Source: Branchiostoma floridae
Lineage: Eukaryota; Chordata; Leptocardii; Amphioxiformes; Branchiostomatidae
Assembly (NCBI RefSeq): GCF_000003815.2
Contig: NC_049991.1
Span: 6,359,372 to 6,423,371, forward strand
Reading direction: 5' to 3'
Length of the DNA: 64,000 nt
Of this stretch, positions 16,490 to 57,028 are shown piece after piece. Position numbers and translations under genes: made by a program. The notes beneath the pieces are model-generated. The model was not told where the DNA came from and did not search any database. It saw only the letters and a list, made by a program, of their open reading frames with translations. The number at the start of each line of letters is the position of its first letter. The first letter of the stretch is position 1.

Positions 16490-16694
16490 ATTAGAAAACC
16501 TCTTTCGCATCCTTCGAAAGCATTACATTGATAGAAAACCTCTTTCGCATCCCCCATAAGTATTACATTGATAGAACACCTCTTTTGCATCCCCCTTAAG
16601 TATTACATTGATAGAAAACCTCTTTTGCATCCCCCTTAAGTATTTCATTGATAGAAAACCTCTTTCGCATCCACCTTCAGCATTACATTGATAG
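16490..16694 (+). repeat. 40-bp tandem repeat, about five units
   Basis: The unit is TATTACATTGATAGAAAACC plus TCTTTCGCATCCCCCTTAAG, exactly 40 bp, at 16521, 16561, 16601 and 16641, with partial units on both sides. Point differences only. Because 40 is not a multiple of three, it is not a coding repeat. Confidence 0.95.
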
Positions 16695-19228: not shown

Positions 19229-19834
19229 CTAGTTGCGGTCTAGTTCGGTAGGGGGGTTTGCGTCTGAGTTGGGGGAAGGGGGGAGGGGGTCAGGGTCGGG
19301 GTCCGCCTTTGGGTCACCCTGGACCTGGTTCTGAAGCTTGCAGACGATACCAGTGAGCGCCACGATGTAGTTCTGCGCCAGGGTTAGCGTTTCTATCTTG
19401 GAGAGTTTTCTGTCCGCGTTCACATGGGGAATAACGTCCCGTAAGCCTTGAAAGGCGTCGTTGAGCGAGTGCATGCGCATCCTTTCTCTCTCGTTACTTT
19501 CCAAGCGTCGCAAATTCCGTTCTCTAGCACTGAGTGCGGCCCGACGTCGTCTGGGGCTTGACGTTTTCTTACTACCGCCGCCTCGGGCTTTCTTCTCCTT
19601 GGGTTGAGCTTCGTCGGTGCTTGAAATGGAAGGCGAGCTGACCGATCCTCTAGGCGGGAGCCCCGATATGTCTTCCCCGTCTTCCTCATCGCTGTGGCTG
19701 GAGAGGTTATCGATGAGAGGTCGCTTGCTTCCGCGGGAGGGGCGCAACTGGTAGTCGGTGGCACGTAGAGCGCTCTCCGCTAGCTCTGCAGTCCAACTCG
19801 TAGTATTGTGGCTCATCATGTTCTTCCCCACCAT
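19229..19834 (-). CDS. BHLHA15: Mist1/dimmed-type bHLH transcription factor
   Basis: The 201-residue protein is read from ATG at 19834 to TAG at 19229. The bHLH domain spans about residues 109-162: basic region [14 protein letters not shown] (with the Asn114, Glu115 and Arg118 E-box contacts) and helix regions ending [15 protein letters not shown], the signature shared by vertebrate Mist1 and fly dimmed. The N-terminal part has acidic/Ser-rich and Lys/Arg-rich segments; the tail is Pro/Asp-rich. Human Mist1 is 189 residues, so length fits. I chose this ATG because a splice acceptor (TTTTCGCAG) ends at 19846 just upstream, implying a 5' UTR intron; a longer frame to 19930 would read through that intron. 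In vertebrates this factor drives secretory-cell maturation. Confidence 0.93.
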
Positions 19835-20164
19835 CTCACAACCACCTGCGAAAATCGATATATTATGGCGTATGAGGGACGACGTCTTTCCGTCTTCGTA
19901 CATTTGCAAAATGACAGGAGTTTGCGTCAAAGCTAGAGCAATCCTACGCCGTCTAGGCCCTCAAAGGGTAGAATGGATTTAGTTTAGCTGTCTGATCTAG
20001 GGAATTTGAAGGTCTTCACTGCTACGGAGATTGACGTAGGCCACCCATCTTTTCATTCGGGGTGAAAAAAAATACCCTGGGAGATCCGTACTGTATTTCG
20101 CTATTAAGATACACTGACGCAAATGGCCGGGAACATAGCACGCTCTTACGCACTTTACTCGGGC

Positions 20165-27912: not shown

Positions 27913-27954
27913 GTTTAGGCCACAGCAAGTACTAGTAAATTTTATGGATGACAT

Positions 27955-28362
27955 AGAACAAATCCTAAAAAAAGCTCGTCGCATCTATAGATACTGGGTA
28001 TTCATGTGTGATAGAACACAGACTGTCAATCAACTAGAACAAATCCTGAAAAAAGCTTGTCGCAACAATACTGGATATTCATGTGTGATAGAACACAGAC
28101 TGTCAATTAACTAGAACAAATCCTGAAAACAAAGCTTGTCATACTACCATGGGTAGCAATTACACTGTATATTCATGTGTGATAGAACACAGACTGCAAA
28201 TTAACTAGAACAAATCCTGAAAAAAGCTTGTCGCATCTACACTGGGTATTCATATGTGATAGAACACAGACTGGCGATAAAATAGAACAGAGCCAGAAAA
28301 AAACTGGTCATACTACCATGGGTAGCAACTATACTGGATATTCATATGTGATTGAACACCTT
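27955..28362 (+). repeat. 77-95 bp tandem repeat, five units in two length classes
   Basis: Each unit starts AGAACAAATCCTGAAAAAAG and ends TGTGATAGAACACAGACTG. Units three and five carry an extra block containing the palindrome CTACCATGGGTAG; the others do not. Confidence 0.9.
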
Positions 28363-41546: not shown

Positions 41547-42468
41547 GTTTGTTTTTACACAATATAACGACATCTGATGGAAACTTTAAAATGCGTCGAA
41601 ATTACGTCATCTATGACGTCATATAAGGTACAAGCGCCGCCCTATTAAGGTATCGGACCGGAGTTTCTTTTACGATTTCGGAGGTTGGCGGGCAGCCTCA
41701 GGCCGAAGGGCTACAGTTCCGCTAGTAAACGTAGGACGCGAAACTTAATCAATATGGCGGAAAGCCGTTTACTGTATCTTTCCGACAAACCTATTGGTAC
41801 CGTCTGTTGCCTCTTTATTTTGGTTAGAATATGTAGTAAAATTTTAATTTTGGACCCGAAAACTATCATTTTTTAACACTTTTTTGATCGAAGCTGCTTG
41901 GAAAAAACGAATTTTCCCAGGATAACGGCCTACGTGGTAGAGAAGCTAAATTCTTCATGTTTGTGTAAAATGAAAATAAAAAAATTCCATGTGATAACTT
42001 TTTTGCAATCTCCGATGACGTCATTTCTTCGAAATCGCATGAAAAACGCCGCTATTTGGGTCATCAGGCGAAAAAACCGCATCACCGTTGCAGCGGACTA
42101 ATACAAAAATGGTTTCGCTGGCCGACCAACTACTCCTCGCACAAAAACAATACAACCCACGGGCTTTTCAGAAAATACGACAAATCTATGCTCAGCTATA
42201 ACGATCACCAAGCCATAGGGAACAAAAGTTAGGGAGACAACAGCGCACTTCCGGCCTATTACACCACCCTTCCGCCAACTCCGGTCAGATTTGAACTCCG
42301 ACCCGGAACCTTAAGAGGGACATTTTTTCTCAATATGTATTTTTATGACTTAAAAAGTTCATATCTACCATATATCCAAATTTGGTTTGTCTCCGATGGT
42401 TACTTTTCCCACAGGAGCGGTTTAAAGTCAGGTCAAAAACACTGTATTTCGAGGCTATCAAGCCTAGA
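41547..42468 (+). repeat. Direct duplication, copy 2, leading into the 557-codon ORF
   Basis: Second copy of 39751-40671, offset 1796-1797 bp. CRE octamers at 41614-41621 and 42016-42023. The first 44 codons of the 557-codon frame lie in this block. The same frame in copy 1 ends soon after the breakpoint at 40671. Confidence 0.93.
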
Positions 42469-44008
42469 CAATGAAACTTTGGAAAACTCGGCAACGGAAA
42501 ATCCACCAACTACAACGCAAGAAAACCGCCAAGGAGGAAAGTTACTTTCACTTTTGACTTTCTTAAAGACGTTAACCCTTGTGAGTATAATGGTAACTTC
42601 CTATGGCTCCTACCAACTCTTTTACGACAGCTACCGTGAGCTTCCCAAGGACTTGAACACATTTTCCCGCGTATTTGTTGAGGATGCGATCCAATTTGTC
42701 CATGGGCCAATGAGATCGCTCGCTCAAAAGATGTACGGTTTAACCTCCATCGTCATCAAGTTTATAAAAGAGGGAACGACGGTTAAGATGATAGCACTGT
42801 GGGTCTTGCGTACGGTTCGAACAGTCGCTACATGTATTTTGAACTCTTCCGCTCTTGCTAGTCTCAAGAAGGGAGCTGTCAACATGTTAAACTTCCTCGT
42901 TTATACATTTCCAACGCTCGCCCACAACTTTGCAAGAGAATCCTACCGAATCGCGAAAGAAGCTGTTAGAGAAATCGCGACCTCTCGTTTCATAGCCGAA
43001 CTAAAAGAAGATATCTACATTCTGTTTTCTTTCACTTTCCGAACTCTCCCAACTCTTGTCATTCGCGTTGTCGTCGCAGCGTGGCGCTCAAGAACGGCGG
43101 AAGTTTTCAAGCAAAAGACTTTGGACGCAATTGACTTTGCTTTCAAGACATTGCCTGGGCTATGCCGCCGCATAGTGTACTTCCTTTCTGTAACTATTAG
43201 ACAGGTCTTAATTTTGATATGGTACTCTCAGTTCTTGAGTAATGCAATGAATGCACTATGCAATGTGACAAACGTACTGTACGAATTTATGCGTGTTCAC
43301 GGTGTATATACCTACAACAATGTTTTAATTCCATTGGCCAAGGTTTTATACGATGTATACTGGATTATTTGCGAGGCTCTATACAAGGTAGTGATATTTG
43401 CGTTTAGGACTGTATTGCCTATTGGAATATCGCTTTGCAAGGATTTGTGCAAGTGGCTTCGAATCAAAGTTCCCGAGTTGTTGAAAATGATCTTGTCTTC
43501 TTCGCGACTGTTGTGGTCGTACACATCTTTGGTTCTAAGAGAATGGTGGATTGCAATACTAAATTCGCAAGCGTGGGTTGCAGTTGCAACCGCAGCACAG
43601 TATTTGAAATGGGCAGCCATAAATGCCATAGGAGTAATTCATAACCTAGCCATGATTGCTAAGAGGGCTGCTGTTGTTGGTTTGCAACTCAGTCGCGCCA
43701 CCGTGCGGAAAATGACAGAACTGCTGCTCACTTCCAAAATCGTATTCGCTGCCATCATGCATAGTCATGTAGTTGAACACATGATTGTCCCATCTGTAAT
43801 GTATGCTGGAGCTAAGGGTAGAGAGCTAGCACAGAGTACAGCACAGTATCTACACATCTATGGTCCAAGAGCTCGGGAATACATGTTAGATGCAATGTGG
43901 TCAGCATACAACTATGACTACAATGGTGTACTGTATATAGTGATGGATAGTTTTAGGGGTGCCATGAGACGTGTATTGTATAGAGATGTAAATGCTCTTA
44001 AGACCTAG
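42335..44008 (+). CDS. Large helical membrane-prone protein, unknown family
   Basis: An uninterrupted 557-codon frame, far longer than chance in this AT-rich DNA. Residues 1-44 come from the duplicated block and may not be translated; Met86 (MVTSYGSYQLF) is an alternative start, and an acceptor-like TTTTCCCACAG ends at 42414. A hydrophobic helix spans about residues 68-88. The rest is predicted continuous amphipathic or hydrophobic helix with scattered Arg/Lys and few prolines. A loose motif recurs: FLVYTFPTL (187), FTFRTLPTL (233), FAFKTLPGL (268), FAFRTVLPI (355). I know of no family with this pattern. Lipid-droplet, apolipoprotein-like or membrane-shaping roles are possible but speculative. 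Confidence 0.65.
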   Translation: MYFYDLKSSYLPYIQIWFVSDGYFSHRSGLKSGQKHCISRLSSLDNETLENSATENPPTTTQENRQGGKLLSLLTFLKTLTLVSIMVTSYGSYQLFYDSYRELPKDLNTFSRVFVEDAIQFVHGPMRSLAQKMYGLTSIVIKFIKEGTTVKMIALWVLRTVRTVATCILNSSALASLKKGAVNMLNFLVYTFPTLAHNFARESYRIAKEAVREIATSRFIAELKEDIYILFSFTFRTLPTLVIRVVVAAWRSRTAEVFKQKTLDAIDFAFKTLPGLCRRIVYFLSVTIRQVLILIWYSQFLSNAMNALCNVTNVLYEFMRVHGVYTYNNVLIPLAKVLYDVYWIICEALYKVVIFAFRTVLPIGISLCKDLCKWLRIKVPELLKMILSSSRLLWSYTSLVLREWWIAILNSQAWVAVATAAQYLKWAAINAIGVIHNLAMIAKRAAVVGLQLSRATVRKMTELLLTSKIVFAAIMHSHVVEHMIVPSVMYAGAKGRELAQSTAQYLHIYGPRAREYMLDAMWSAYNYDYNGVLYIVMDSFRGAMRRVLYRDVNALKT

Positions 44009-53400: not shown

Positions 53401-56400
53401 ATCAAGAAACAGTCAGACATTTCAGACAGCATCCACTTAATTCTTTCGTCAGTGAGTCAGTGACTGGCGAAAGACATTTGTAACTTATTGTTAGACAAAT
53501 ATCCAGGAACAAAAACAGCAAGGCAGACAGACAAACCAAGAACAATACCTCCAATTCCACGGAGGTTACATTACTTACAAACAAATCTAAAGACACAAGC
53601 ACACGGTTTCAACTTACCCAGGTAGTGGTTCTTTGTCCCAGTTTATAGTCCAGGCAGACCCATTGTTGAACACACTGGTCAGTTTACCCTTTAGGATGAT
53701 CTCTACTTGATCCTTGTCTATCTCTTTCTCACAGCGAGCAAAGGCTCTTTGTACATACTCCCTGTAAAACACAGCAATATGTTAGAAAAATGACGCAACA
53801 TGTTAAAACACAACTTACAACTACTAAACAACTTTTTTCTTATAGTATCTGCTTCTCAAGTTTTTCGTAACTTACTGCAAAGCTTTTTGGTTACCTTACA
53901 TAAGCAAATTCTTAGGAATTCCTATGTTCTTGTGAGAAACAAATCTTTTCCTTAGACGTATCTAAGATAAGAAATATTCTTACTTGAGACTTGGGGGCCA
54001 GTCGCTTGGATTTGGTGTGCCTCCGCCCATGCCACCCCTGAAGAAGACAAAGAAGAGTCAACCACTCTATTGAAAGTCTATCCAATCAATCGTAATATCC
54101 GAATCTGGTATTCTAATTCTTGACAGTGGCGCAAACACAAAAACTATTCTATCATAGCCCTTACAATACAAGAAGATATGGTAAGACCAGACCAAAATAC
54201 ACAAATCTCAAGTTATCATAGCCCATGTATGATGTGACTCATAAGTCATAACTTTATTCATTTCTCTAGCGTAGGAATTAGAAAAGATATAGTTCCATAC
54301 CCTGGAGGTAGTGTAGTATCATGTTGAGGTTGAGAACTAGGTTCCTCTTGTTGATCCCTCTCTTGATGTTGACCCTGGCGACCTCGAAACGATTGTTGCG
54401 GGTGTGGCTGTCGCGGTGACTCGGAGTTCGCCTGCCTTTGGTTGTTCGATCCCGAAGAGTGGCCCGCTGACGCTAGAGGGTTTCCCATCTGCTGATGCCG
54501 CTTGGGGAGGTTGAATTTGATGCCTGCACCTGGGGCAGCTGTGCATACATAAATAATAAATATTATGCCTACACCTTTGTGCATTCATTAACATTGAATT
54601 TCATGCCTGCACCTGGAACAGCTGTGCATACATAACATTGAATTCCATGCATGCACCTGAAGCAGCTGTATGTCACACATAGGATAGATATTGACTAATA
54701 CCTGCACCTGGAGCAGCTGTGCATACAAGAAAACATTGAATTTACTGTCTGAGCCTGGAGCAGCTGTGCATACATAACATAGGATTTCATGCCTGCACCT
54801 GGAGAAGCTATGCATACATTTACATTGAATTTCATATCTGCACGTGGAGCAGCTGTGTATACATAAACATTGAATAATCACTACAAAGATTCCAGATCTA
54901 CTGTAAAAAAAACTCTAGAAATATTTCTATTATTTTACAATTATAGGGAAGGTTAATTATGTAACATATACTTCATGTATATAAGTAAAACGTAATCTAC
55001 CATTGATTAATTCTACTTCTTTATCAGACATACAAGGAAAAAAAACTGCTTTCAGAAAAGAAGCATCCACACTAAAGGTGTTGCAAAAAAAAAAACACCT
55101 TTCATTTTCATCTGGTTTGGTGGTTGGTTGGGTTGGTCATTGGGTCCCCTCTGTGAGAAGTTCCATGTATTGGTCCCTGATTGGTTGTTCCCCTTAACGA
55201 CATTAGCATAACTCTGATGTTGATTCTGAGTCCAGGGTCCAGGCATCGGGGCTTGGTTGTTGCTGTTGTCCTGATTTGGTTGGCCCATCATTGGCGTTTG
55301 TTGTTGTTGTTGATTTTGTTGTTGTGGTGGCGGACCTTGCATGTTGGGAGGCTGTTGTGGGAACTGAGGCATGTTAGGGGCCTGGCCAGGCATATTTGGT
55401 TGGTATCCTTGGTACATGCCCTAAAAATCATGAAGGGAAATCATCACAAAAATCATTAAAGGAATGGCAACATGTAAACAGTGATAGTACTTTGGTACTG
55501 TACTATAAATATGTATTTCTAGTGTTCCTTTATGTTTGTCTATGTTTCTCTAGTGTCCCAATGCTTGTATGAAATGTATAGTACTTTCTTCAATTCTATA
55601 AGACAACGAAAATTGTCCTTACCCCAGGGTTTGGGTACTGTTGGTAGAACGCAGGGTTGTATCCAGGCTGATATGGATACTGGTATCTGTGGGTAAAGAT
55701 AATAAAAAGGGTAGATTTTATTGACATGAACTAACACATAGTAAAAACAATACACCATCAATAGACTTTTGTTGAACAAGGACTCCATGAATGACATACT
55801 CTAGTACAAAACTTAATACAACTTATAAACATACCCATATTGCTGTTGATACATGGCATACTGCTGAGCGTACTGCTGGTAGTACTGTTGGTATTGTTGT
55901 TCCTGCTGTTGTTGTTGCATGTTTTTCTGCTGAGTGTCCACCACAACTGTCTCCTGTTTCTCTTTCTCCTTAACTTTCTCCAGGGCTTCCTGTGCTTTCT
56001 TCCATGCGGGATTCTCTGCAACGGGCGCTGTTGTCGGATTGGTTGTCGTGTCTGTCGTGCCAGGAGGAGCAAGACTTCCCGAATATTGTTGCGACCTGTG
56101 AAATCGAAAAATATTGTAAAATTGTCTCAGTTCGCAATAGAGAAAAGGAAGTTTTTGTACCATTTGCAGTGTTTTGAATTTGTTCACATTGTTGTACATT
56201 AAGTTTGTAAGAGGGAGACATAAATGCAACGTCATGAACTCACCATAGAAGCGGTCACTATGATTATGAACTTTACATTTAAAAACAAACTAAAACACTA
56301 CAAGTGTTATTTTTCACAAAAGATATCTTCTAGAACTTTCTGACTTGTACCTAAAAGATCTACCTATACTACTCACATCTCTGTAAAAGAGGAGTTGTCT

Positions 56401-57028
56401 ATGGTCTTGGGGGATTCCAAAGTTGGCAACAGTGACATATTCGATATCTTCTGAATTAAAACTGTTTTAGAATTCCCAGACATTGCAGAGGAATAGGTAA
56501 AACAATGTTGTGAATAGGAGCAAAATTTTGTCTCTGTTGCTAAGGAAAATCGCACAAAATTTCTAGAATGTTTTTATGACATCATAATGTCCTTTATGAC
56601 GTTTCACCTATATATTTTGGATCGTGCAAAATACCCGGATGTTGGGTTGTGTGTTTGAGGACTTTTTAGTTTACTGAATTCTTATGTGGATTTTTCACAT
56701 ATTAAGGACAAAAAAATACAGAATACCATGAAATTATGATGGACGGGGAATGGAAGAAGGTTGGGGAATCGAGGGAAGTTATGAGAAAGAAAATAGGACG
56801 ACAAATTATGTGAACATACAACGCGTTGTTGTTTGACAAACCTAAACGCTATCCACATAACAGCGCCATTTTTTTGTACTTAGAAACAATAAACCCCACC
56901 AAGTTTACTCATAAGATGTTCTTTGAATCTTTAAGAAGAACTGTGTGGTACCAAAATTGGCAAGCTACTTACCATTGCGCTGCTTGGGCCGCTTGAGCGG
57001 CCGCATTATTCCACTGTACGGCAGCCAT
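47458..57028 (-). CDS. LENG8: LENG8 orthologue, SAC3/GANP-family mRNA processing factor
   Basis: Sixteen exons, every phase consistent, 819 residues (human about 800): 56973-57028, 55835-56095, 55623-55686, 55099-55420, 54301-54538, 53984-54037, 53618-53761, 52589-52708, 51643-51915, 51051-51177, 50438-50533, 49660-49794, 49471-49539, 48989-49121, 48275-48482, 47458-47617. Near the N-terminus, [14 protein letters not shown] matches the conserved family motif, then come Gln/Tyr-rich and Pro/Gln-rich tracts (about 70-234), [14 protein letters not shown], an RS domain (about 421-446), an RG-rich segment (about 480-500) and the C-terminal SAC3/GANP region (about 555-790; [54 protein letters not shown]). 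Yeast Thp3 and SAC3 relatives act in transcription-coupled mRNA processing and export with PCI-domain partners. For exon 5 I prefer the acceptor at 54539-54540, because it keeps the conserved AAPGAG; one 15 bases downstream is also in frame. Confidence 0.95.
49262..49370 (+). repeat. CA-rich microsatellite in LENG8 intron 13
   Basis: Imperfect CACACA and ACACGCACACATGC runs. Confidence 0.85.
50880..51032. mobile_element. MITE family A copy in LENG8 intron 10
   Basis: AACCAAGCAGATCCTACGAT at the left and GCTACCGTAGGATCTGCTTG plus GAGATT at the right, inverted. The right half is well preserved (CTCCTCTGGCAGCTTTTGAT). Confidence 0.8.
51958..52165. mobile_element. MITE family D, decayed copy in LENG8 intron 8
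   Basis: TACTGTAAATGCTCAAATTT, GTTTGCAGTTTTTGCGG and the inverted CTGCGAACTAAAAACTGCAG keep the family D layout, but CpG positions have mostly mutated, as in an old copy. Confidence 0.6.
52231..52457. mobile_element. MITE family C, 0.23 kb copy in LENG8 intron 8
   Basis: TAGGCCATGTTGATTTGATT then ATATGGATGGCATC at the left. The inverted right end is GGATGTCATCCATGTAGTCA then AAACAACATGGCCTTA. It is the shortest and clearest copy. Confidence 0.85.
52970..53290. repeat. Foldback element in LENG8 intron 7
   Basis: ACATGGATCAAATTTTCAAC (52997) pairs with the complement of TTGAAAATTTGATCCATGT (near 53245). GGTCAAACGTGCCAGGAAGT (53090) pairs with the complement of ACTTCCTGGCACGTTTGACA near 53160. 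The arms are about 130 bp with gaps, around a central segment of about 50 bp. Confidence 0.8.
54524..54882 (-). repeat. Minisatellite made of the LENG8 exon 5 splice acceptor
   Basis: About seven degenerate 38-53 bp units sit immediately upstream of exon 5. On the gene strand each reads like the real acceptor and exon start: GTATGCACAGCTGCTCCAGG, TGCAG, then GCATGAAATTCAATG, compared with CTGCCCCAGGTGCAG then GCATCAAATTCAAC at exon 5. In one frame an intronic unit even encodes [11 protein letters not shown]. Unit starts are near 54566, 54604, 54646, 54699, 54743, 54789 and 54836. Confidence 0.9.

Follow-up and report, generated by a model that had tools for sequence, protein, structure and literature searches.

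A minisatellite was found on the minus strand (54540-54882) directly upstream of coding exon 5 of LENG8 in the window, the whole 64-kb stretch of Branchiostoma floridae DNA that was analysed. The array is very probably (a rough probability of 0.86, judged from the sequence) an amphioxus "mirage", tolerated by splicing rather than used. Mirages are tandem copies at intron/exon boundaries, described for Adh3, globins, troponin C and PGBD5 in the excerpts of PMC3087553 and PMC3902484 that were consulted; the PGBD5 case was added in the latter, which cites Adh and troponin C. LENG8 is a further gene among amphioxus mirages, absent from the published examples compared.

The gene was identified by comparing its joined downstream exons with the PDB, where human LENG8 chains (9dlr) were matched with an E-value of 2.5e-68, and Thp3 (2.2e-23) and GANP (1.9e-5 at best) came well behind. 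The query was joined by hand, with one exon absent and a few wrong residues at a join, and the identification is independent of these. One exon of the gene scored above the Pfam cut-off for SAC3_GANP. Exons 4-7, searched against the PDB in the short form without AAPGA, gave 0 matches, and the exon 5 stretch gave 0 families in Pfam. Between exons 1 and 2, an open stretch at about 56396-56460 (minus strand) ends at GTGAGT, and its phase, read by eye, fits a cassette exon; a direct join of exon 1 to exon 2 also appeared to be in frame by eye. The coordinates of the features around the array are shown in Table 1.

Table 1. Features of the LENG8 exon 4 to exon 5 region, in positions of the window (exon numbers are those of this report)
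Feature	Positions	Strand	Basis
LENG8 exon 4, phase-1 donor AAAG/GTGTTT	55099..55420	-	open frame to ...NQMKMK, joins exon 5 in frame
LENG8 intron 4, 560 nt, array at its 3' end	54539..55098	-	GT...AG between exons 4 and 5
Full units u1-u6 (six, in tandem), each repeating the exon 5 acceptor with about 28 bases of the exon	54588..54882	-	TRF, direct-repeat family, unit alignment
Seventh unit, shortened by a deletion that takes out the CAG/CTG site; both of its AGs (before 54574 and 54568) keep the exon 5 frame	54561..54587	-	alignment, frames
AG-free zone of 28 nt upstream of exon 5; its branch-point-like motif (yTnAy) lies at 17 nt from the acceptor	54541..54568	-	motif scan
LENG8 exon 5, in-frame AGs at 0, +9 and +15	54301..54538	-	frames; 3' end from GT

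Elsewhere in the window, a basic helix-loop-helix open frame was found at 19232-19960 (minus strand; Pfam HLH, E 9.2e-18), with neurogenic differentiation factor 1 as its best PDB match. An open frame of 591 codons at 42233-44005 (plus strand) had no Pfam or PDB match and is possibly an intronless gene or a relic. Other tandem arrays lie at 27954-28359 (171/77-bp units) and 16492-16694 (40-bp units).

Analysis with TRF gave a period of 44 with 6.5 copies at 54578-54875 and a period of 38 with 2.0 copies at 54540-54614, and a gap-free repeat search returned a 56-nt block seven times from 54497 to 54866, the first copy being the start of exon 5. Alignment resolved six full copies and one shortened copy in tandem with a unit of about 44 bp, each full unit containing the last bases of the intron (consensus ATGTATGCACAG) followed by about 28 bases of exon 5 (consensus CTGCTCCAGGTGCAGGCATGAAATTCAA). 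The initial annotation had described about seven extra tandem units upstream of exon 5, in which the acceptor and first exon bases of LENG8 were amplified into a minisatellite, and both statements were borne out by these searches, the unit alignment and the PDB match. On the minus strand, the first AG of u1 to u6 stands just before 54852, 54807, 54763, 54716, 54665 and 54621, respectively, and that of exon 5 just before 54538. The full units were 68-89% identical to the exon 5 copy over the first 28 exon bases (ungapped) and 61-86% identical among themselves in the exon part. Over the last 12 intron bases, identity to the exon 5 copy was 92-100% except in u5 (42%), whose intron part has diverged, so that the boundary span is weak on that side. 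There were up to three AGs per unit, at 0, +9 and +15, plus two stray AGs in the array; with 20 AGs in all, the ladder of candidate 3' splice sites that had been reported was recovered. The first AG is retained in all six full units and was lost from the seventh by a deletion. The array thus shows what defines a mirage, namely tandem minisatellite-like units that span an intron/exon boundary in an amphioxus gene, with splice signals kept in many units (6/6 full ones) and not in all (the short one).

The local duplication of 27 LENG8 boundaries (15 acceptors and 12 donors, the donors of exons 5, 9 and 14 being left out) was scored with a single 60-base query for each. Clear local duplication was confined to the exon 5 acceptor (1/27), whose score of 36 (z 21.7; shuffles reached at most 13) rules out chance similarity of the units to exon 5. 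The other 26 boundaries scored 14 or less, the highest score belonging to the exonic side of the exon 2 donor (z 4.5; shuffles reached at most 12).

The consequences of splicing from exon 4 (phase 1, end 55099) to each AG were then read from the frames. A stop before exon 5 was reached from 18 of the 20 array AGs, which were all the AGs in the six full units. The earlier statement that use of most decoys would give truncated or decay-targeted mRNA therefore holds for these 18 and does not extend to the short unit, whose AGs (54574 and 54568) leave the frame open with 12 or 10 additional residues. The three exon 5 AGs, which place the first base of the exon at 54538 (0), 54529 (+9) or 54523 (+15), are all CAG, and all are in frame and open. 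A T-rich upstream AG before 54900 (TTTTTTTTACAG) was also considered as the true acceptor and was rejected on account of a stop at 54883.

Sequence context distinguished the exon 5 acceptor from most of its copies. The branch-point consensus yTnAy, used as a short motif at distances of 12-60 nt, occurred within the AG-free zone of 13 of the 15 real LENG8 acceptors, exon 5 included, and of 1 of the 7 unit-first AGs (Fisher p 0.002, in a test chosen post hoc). The motif was missing at the first AG of every full unit, the sole match among the units being the AAAG site at 54574, at a distance of 12 nt. Among real acceptors, those of exons 8 and 11 failed, the exon 8 site having been placed among several AGs, and that of exon 15 passed only at 13 nt. 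The 20 bases upstream contained 11 Ts at exon 5 and 5-9 at the seven unit-first AGs. Pyrimidine counts per 20 bases overlapped (13 at exon 5; 8-13 at the seven unit-first AGs), as did the lengths of the AG-free zones (28 nt at exon 5; 26-33 nt), which leaves room for low-level use of some decoys.

The array probably arose when an intron/exon boundary, in this case the exon 5 acceptor, was duplicated in tandem, and slippage or unequal exchange together with decay of units would have followed. The branch-point-like motif and the T-rich stretch in the AG-free zone before exon 5 suggest that splicing uses the last AG cluster, namely 54538, possibly joined by the AGs in frame at +9 or +15. The upstream AGs would mostly be ignored, with the copies as bystanders, and occasional splicing to them would in most cases yield mRNA with a premature stop. 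It is most likely that the acceptor nearest to the exon holds the working branch-point context and that the array is tolerated.

Controls in the same genome showed similar arrays in other genes. Both control tests used three query offsets, with score thresholds of 22 and 20 for globins and kinesins. Two of nine globin matches were flagged for boundary copies, one with a donor-side copy at an offset of 157 bp (L007) and the other with 4.2 copies arrayed on the acceptor side at a period of 158 bp (L011). These agree in side and unit length, the features on which they were matched rather than gene name, with the Branchiostoma floridae globin mirages BflGb9 and BflGb6 as given in the available text of PMC3087553. 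At a further globin locus (L006, 1084-1369), TRF found a 17-bp array of 16.8 copies about 130 bases from the globin exon match, which was not flagged as boundary-spanning.

The kinesin-domain set, which was not selected for arrays, gave a base rate. It comprised 134 matches, of which 40 were left out for flank and 5 as too long, giving 89 matches with 164 ends, and two decoy-copy matches (4 ends) were dropped, giving 87 matches with 160 ends. Boundary-spanning copies were present at 3 of the 160 match ends (about 2%), these being domain-match ends in one family, not all of them proven splice boundaries, with incomplete recall of old or short units. The 12 flagged rows consisted of 4 from the decoy copies of L038, 3 counted ends and 5 uncounted rows. 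The counted ends were the acceptor of L038 and two donors of L048. L038 (G000:C2:31967588-31968002) has two extra tandem copies of 151 bp, in which the acceptor is followed by roughly the first 90 bp of the exon (array period 151, 2.7 copies). L048 (G000:C6:18691097-18692040, minus strand) has decayed downstream copies of two donors (...EIYNEMVR at GTATGT and ...AKIIG at GTATGG), with about 20 and 13 exon bases shared, so that this single gene carries donor-side mirages at two different exons. Flags at L048 222-297, L049, L053 and L054 were judged from their offsets to be intronic repeats beside an exon and were not counted; re-alignment of L048 222-297 and L049 covered the flagged stretch poorly. 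L046 was flagged and left out of the kinesin count. Among shuffled kinesin controls, 0 of 984 scored above 15 (threshold 20). The initial annotation had regarded the array as unusual, a view not supported for this organism, given the arrays in its globins and kinesins and the mirages already named in amphioxus in the published excerpts.

The alternative that fared best, itself rather unlikely, is that acceptor choice varies only at the real start of exon 5, where the in-frame AGs (0, +9 and +15) would yield slightly different proteins that contain or lack AAPGA, and that the array is irrelevant. It is favoured by the three open, in-frame CAGs, which share one branch-point-like motif at 17, 26 and 32 nt. 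However, the AG that comes first after a branch point is usually preferred, and the AG-free zone and branch-point-like motif of the first exon 5 AG favour that site. Human LENG8 presumably carries a PAPGTG stretch before LKFNIQKR, resembling the peptide read from the first exon 5 AG and so fitting its use; a literature search for the human peptide around PAPGTG gave no match. This alternative is compatible with the array being a tolerated mirage.

The initial annotation had proposed that the array could tune LENG8 expression. In its full form, decoys would be used to a meaningful extent and unproductive transcripts would set LENG8 dose, possibly as feedback, which we consider very unlikely. 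According to the literature consulted, LENG8 takes part in holding incompletely processed RNA in the nucleus and in its decay, and the 18 of 20 array AGs that bring a stop before exon 5 provide the premature stop of regulated unproductive splicing; such stops are, however, expected in unselected sequence. The proposal is further opposed by the six full-unit first AGs, which are without branch-point-like context, and by the AGs not being preferentially kept: AG columns matched the consensus in 34 of 36 letters and other core columns in 85 of 96, so that there was no excess conservation of decoy AGs among the six units of this single assembly (p 0.51). Similar arrays in globins and kinesins mean that no link to LENG8 function is needed. 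In the published cases, Adh3 data and globin RT-PCR suggest undisturbed regular splicing at mirages (PMC3087553, in the part available). A limited search of LENG8 literature found no mention of autoregulation or of the intron. Self-tuning of LENG8 through the array would thus be possible in principle and is unsupported. That array unit number sets the fraction of LENG8 transcripts lost to decoys is less likely still; if true, since incompletely processed RNA is retained and degraded by LENG8, the array would form an adjustable feedback on LENG8 dose, variable in length from one individual to another.

False expansion or collapse of the repeat in the assembly is a highly improbable source of the array. 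One published amphioxus mirage was aberrantly assembled in the genome draft, according to the excerpt of PMC3087553, and the unit number of the LENG8 array may be wrong in the assembly. The six full units, however, differ from one another to the extent given above, which argues against false duplication. Some transposons contain tandem units, and the least probable source, a fragment of a transposable element or dispersed repeat abutting exon 5, was rejected because the array, searched against the 513-Mb, 431-contig assembly with a method that passes over simple repeats and very common words, had a single match, the array itself, within search sensitivity, and because the units contain exon 5 coding bases.

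With the LENG8 array read as a tolerated mirage, LENG8, one kinesin acceptor and two kinesin donors extend the amphioxus mirage gene set known from the published excerpts. The kinesin base rate of 3/160 suggests that many lancelet junctions have decoy splice sites that are tolerated. Lancelets would then be a natural test bed for how the spliceosome selects one of several near-identical sites and for the ways in which tandem duplication lengthens introns or creates new ones.

The LENG8 array is like the published mirages in its minisatellite-like boundary copies, its cryptic sites (AG or GT in mirages) and its lineage. Mirages affect both 5' and 3' boundaries and show length instability, and the published units measure 157 bp in BflGb9, 150-160 bp in BflGb6 (81-100% alike) and 10-72 bp in Adh3 (PMC3087553, in the part consulted). 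The LENG8 unit of 44 bp is thus shorter than the 150-160 bp of the globin mirages and lies within the Adh3 range. Its units are less alike in the exon part than those of BflGb6, so the LENG8 array is probably older. A link between mirages and intron gain has been proposed in the excerpt of PMC3087553. As in intron gain by tandem exon duplication, so far as the partial sources describe it, the LENG8 array is a tandem duplication with splice signals; unlike it, no new intron was seen in LENG8, where an intron already present had grown at the 3' end. NAGNAG-like sites are a family of tandem alternative acceptors, and the start of exon 5 likewise has several in-frame AGs (0, +9 and +15), with spacings of 9 and 6 nt and putative use.
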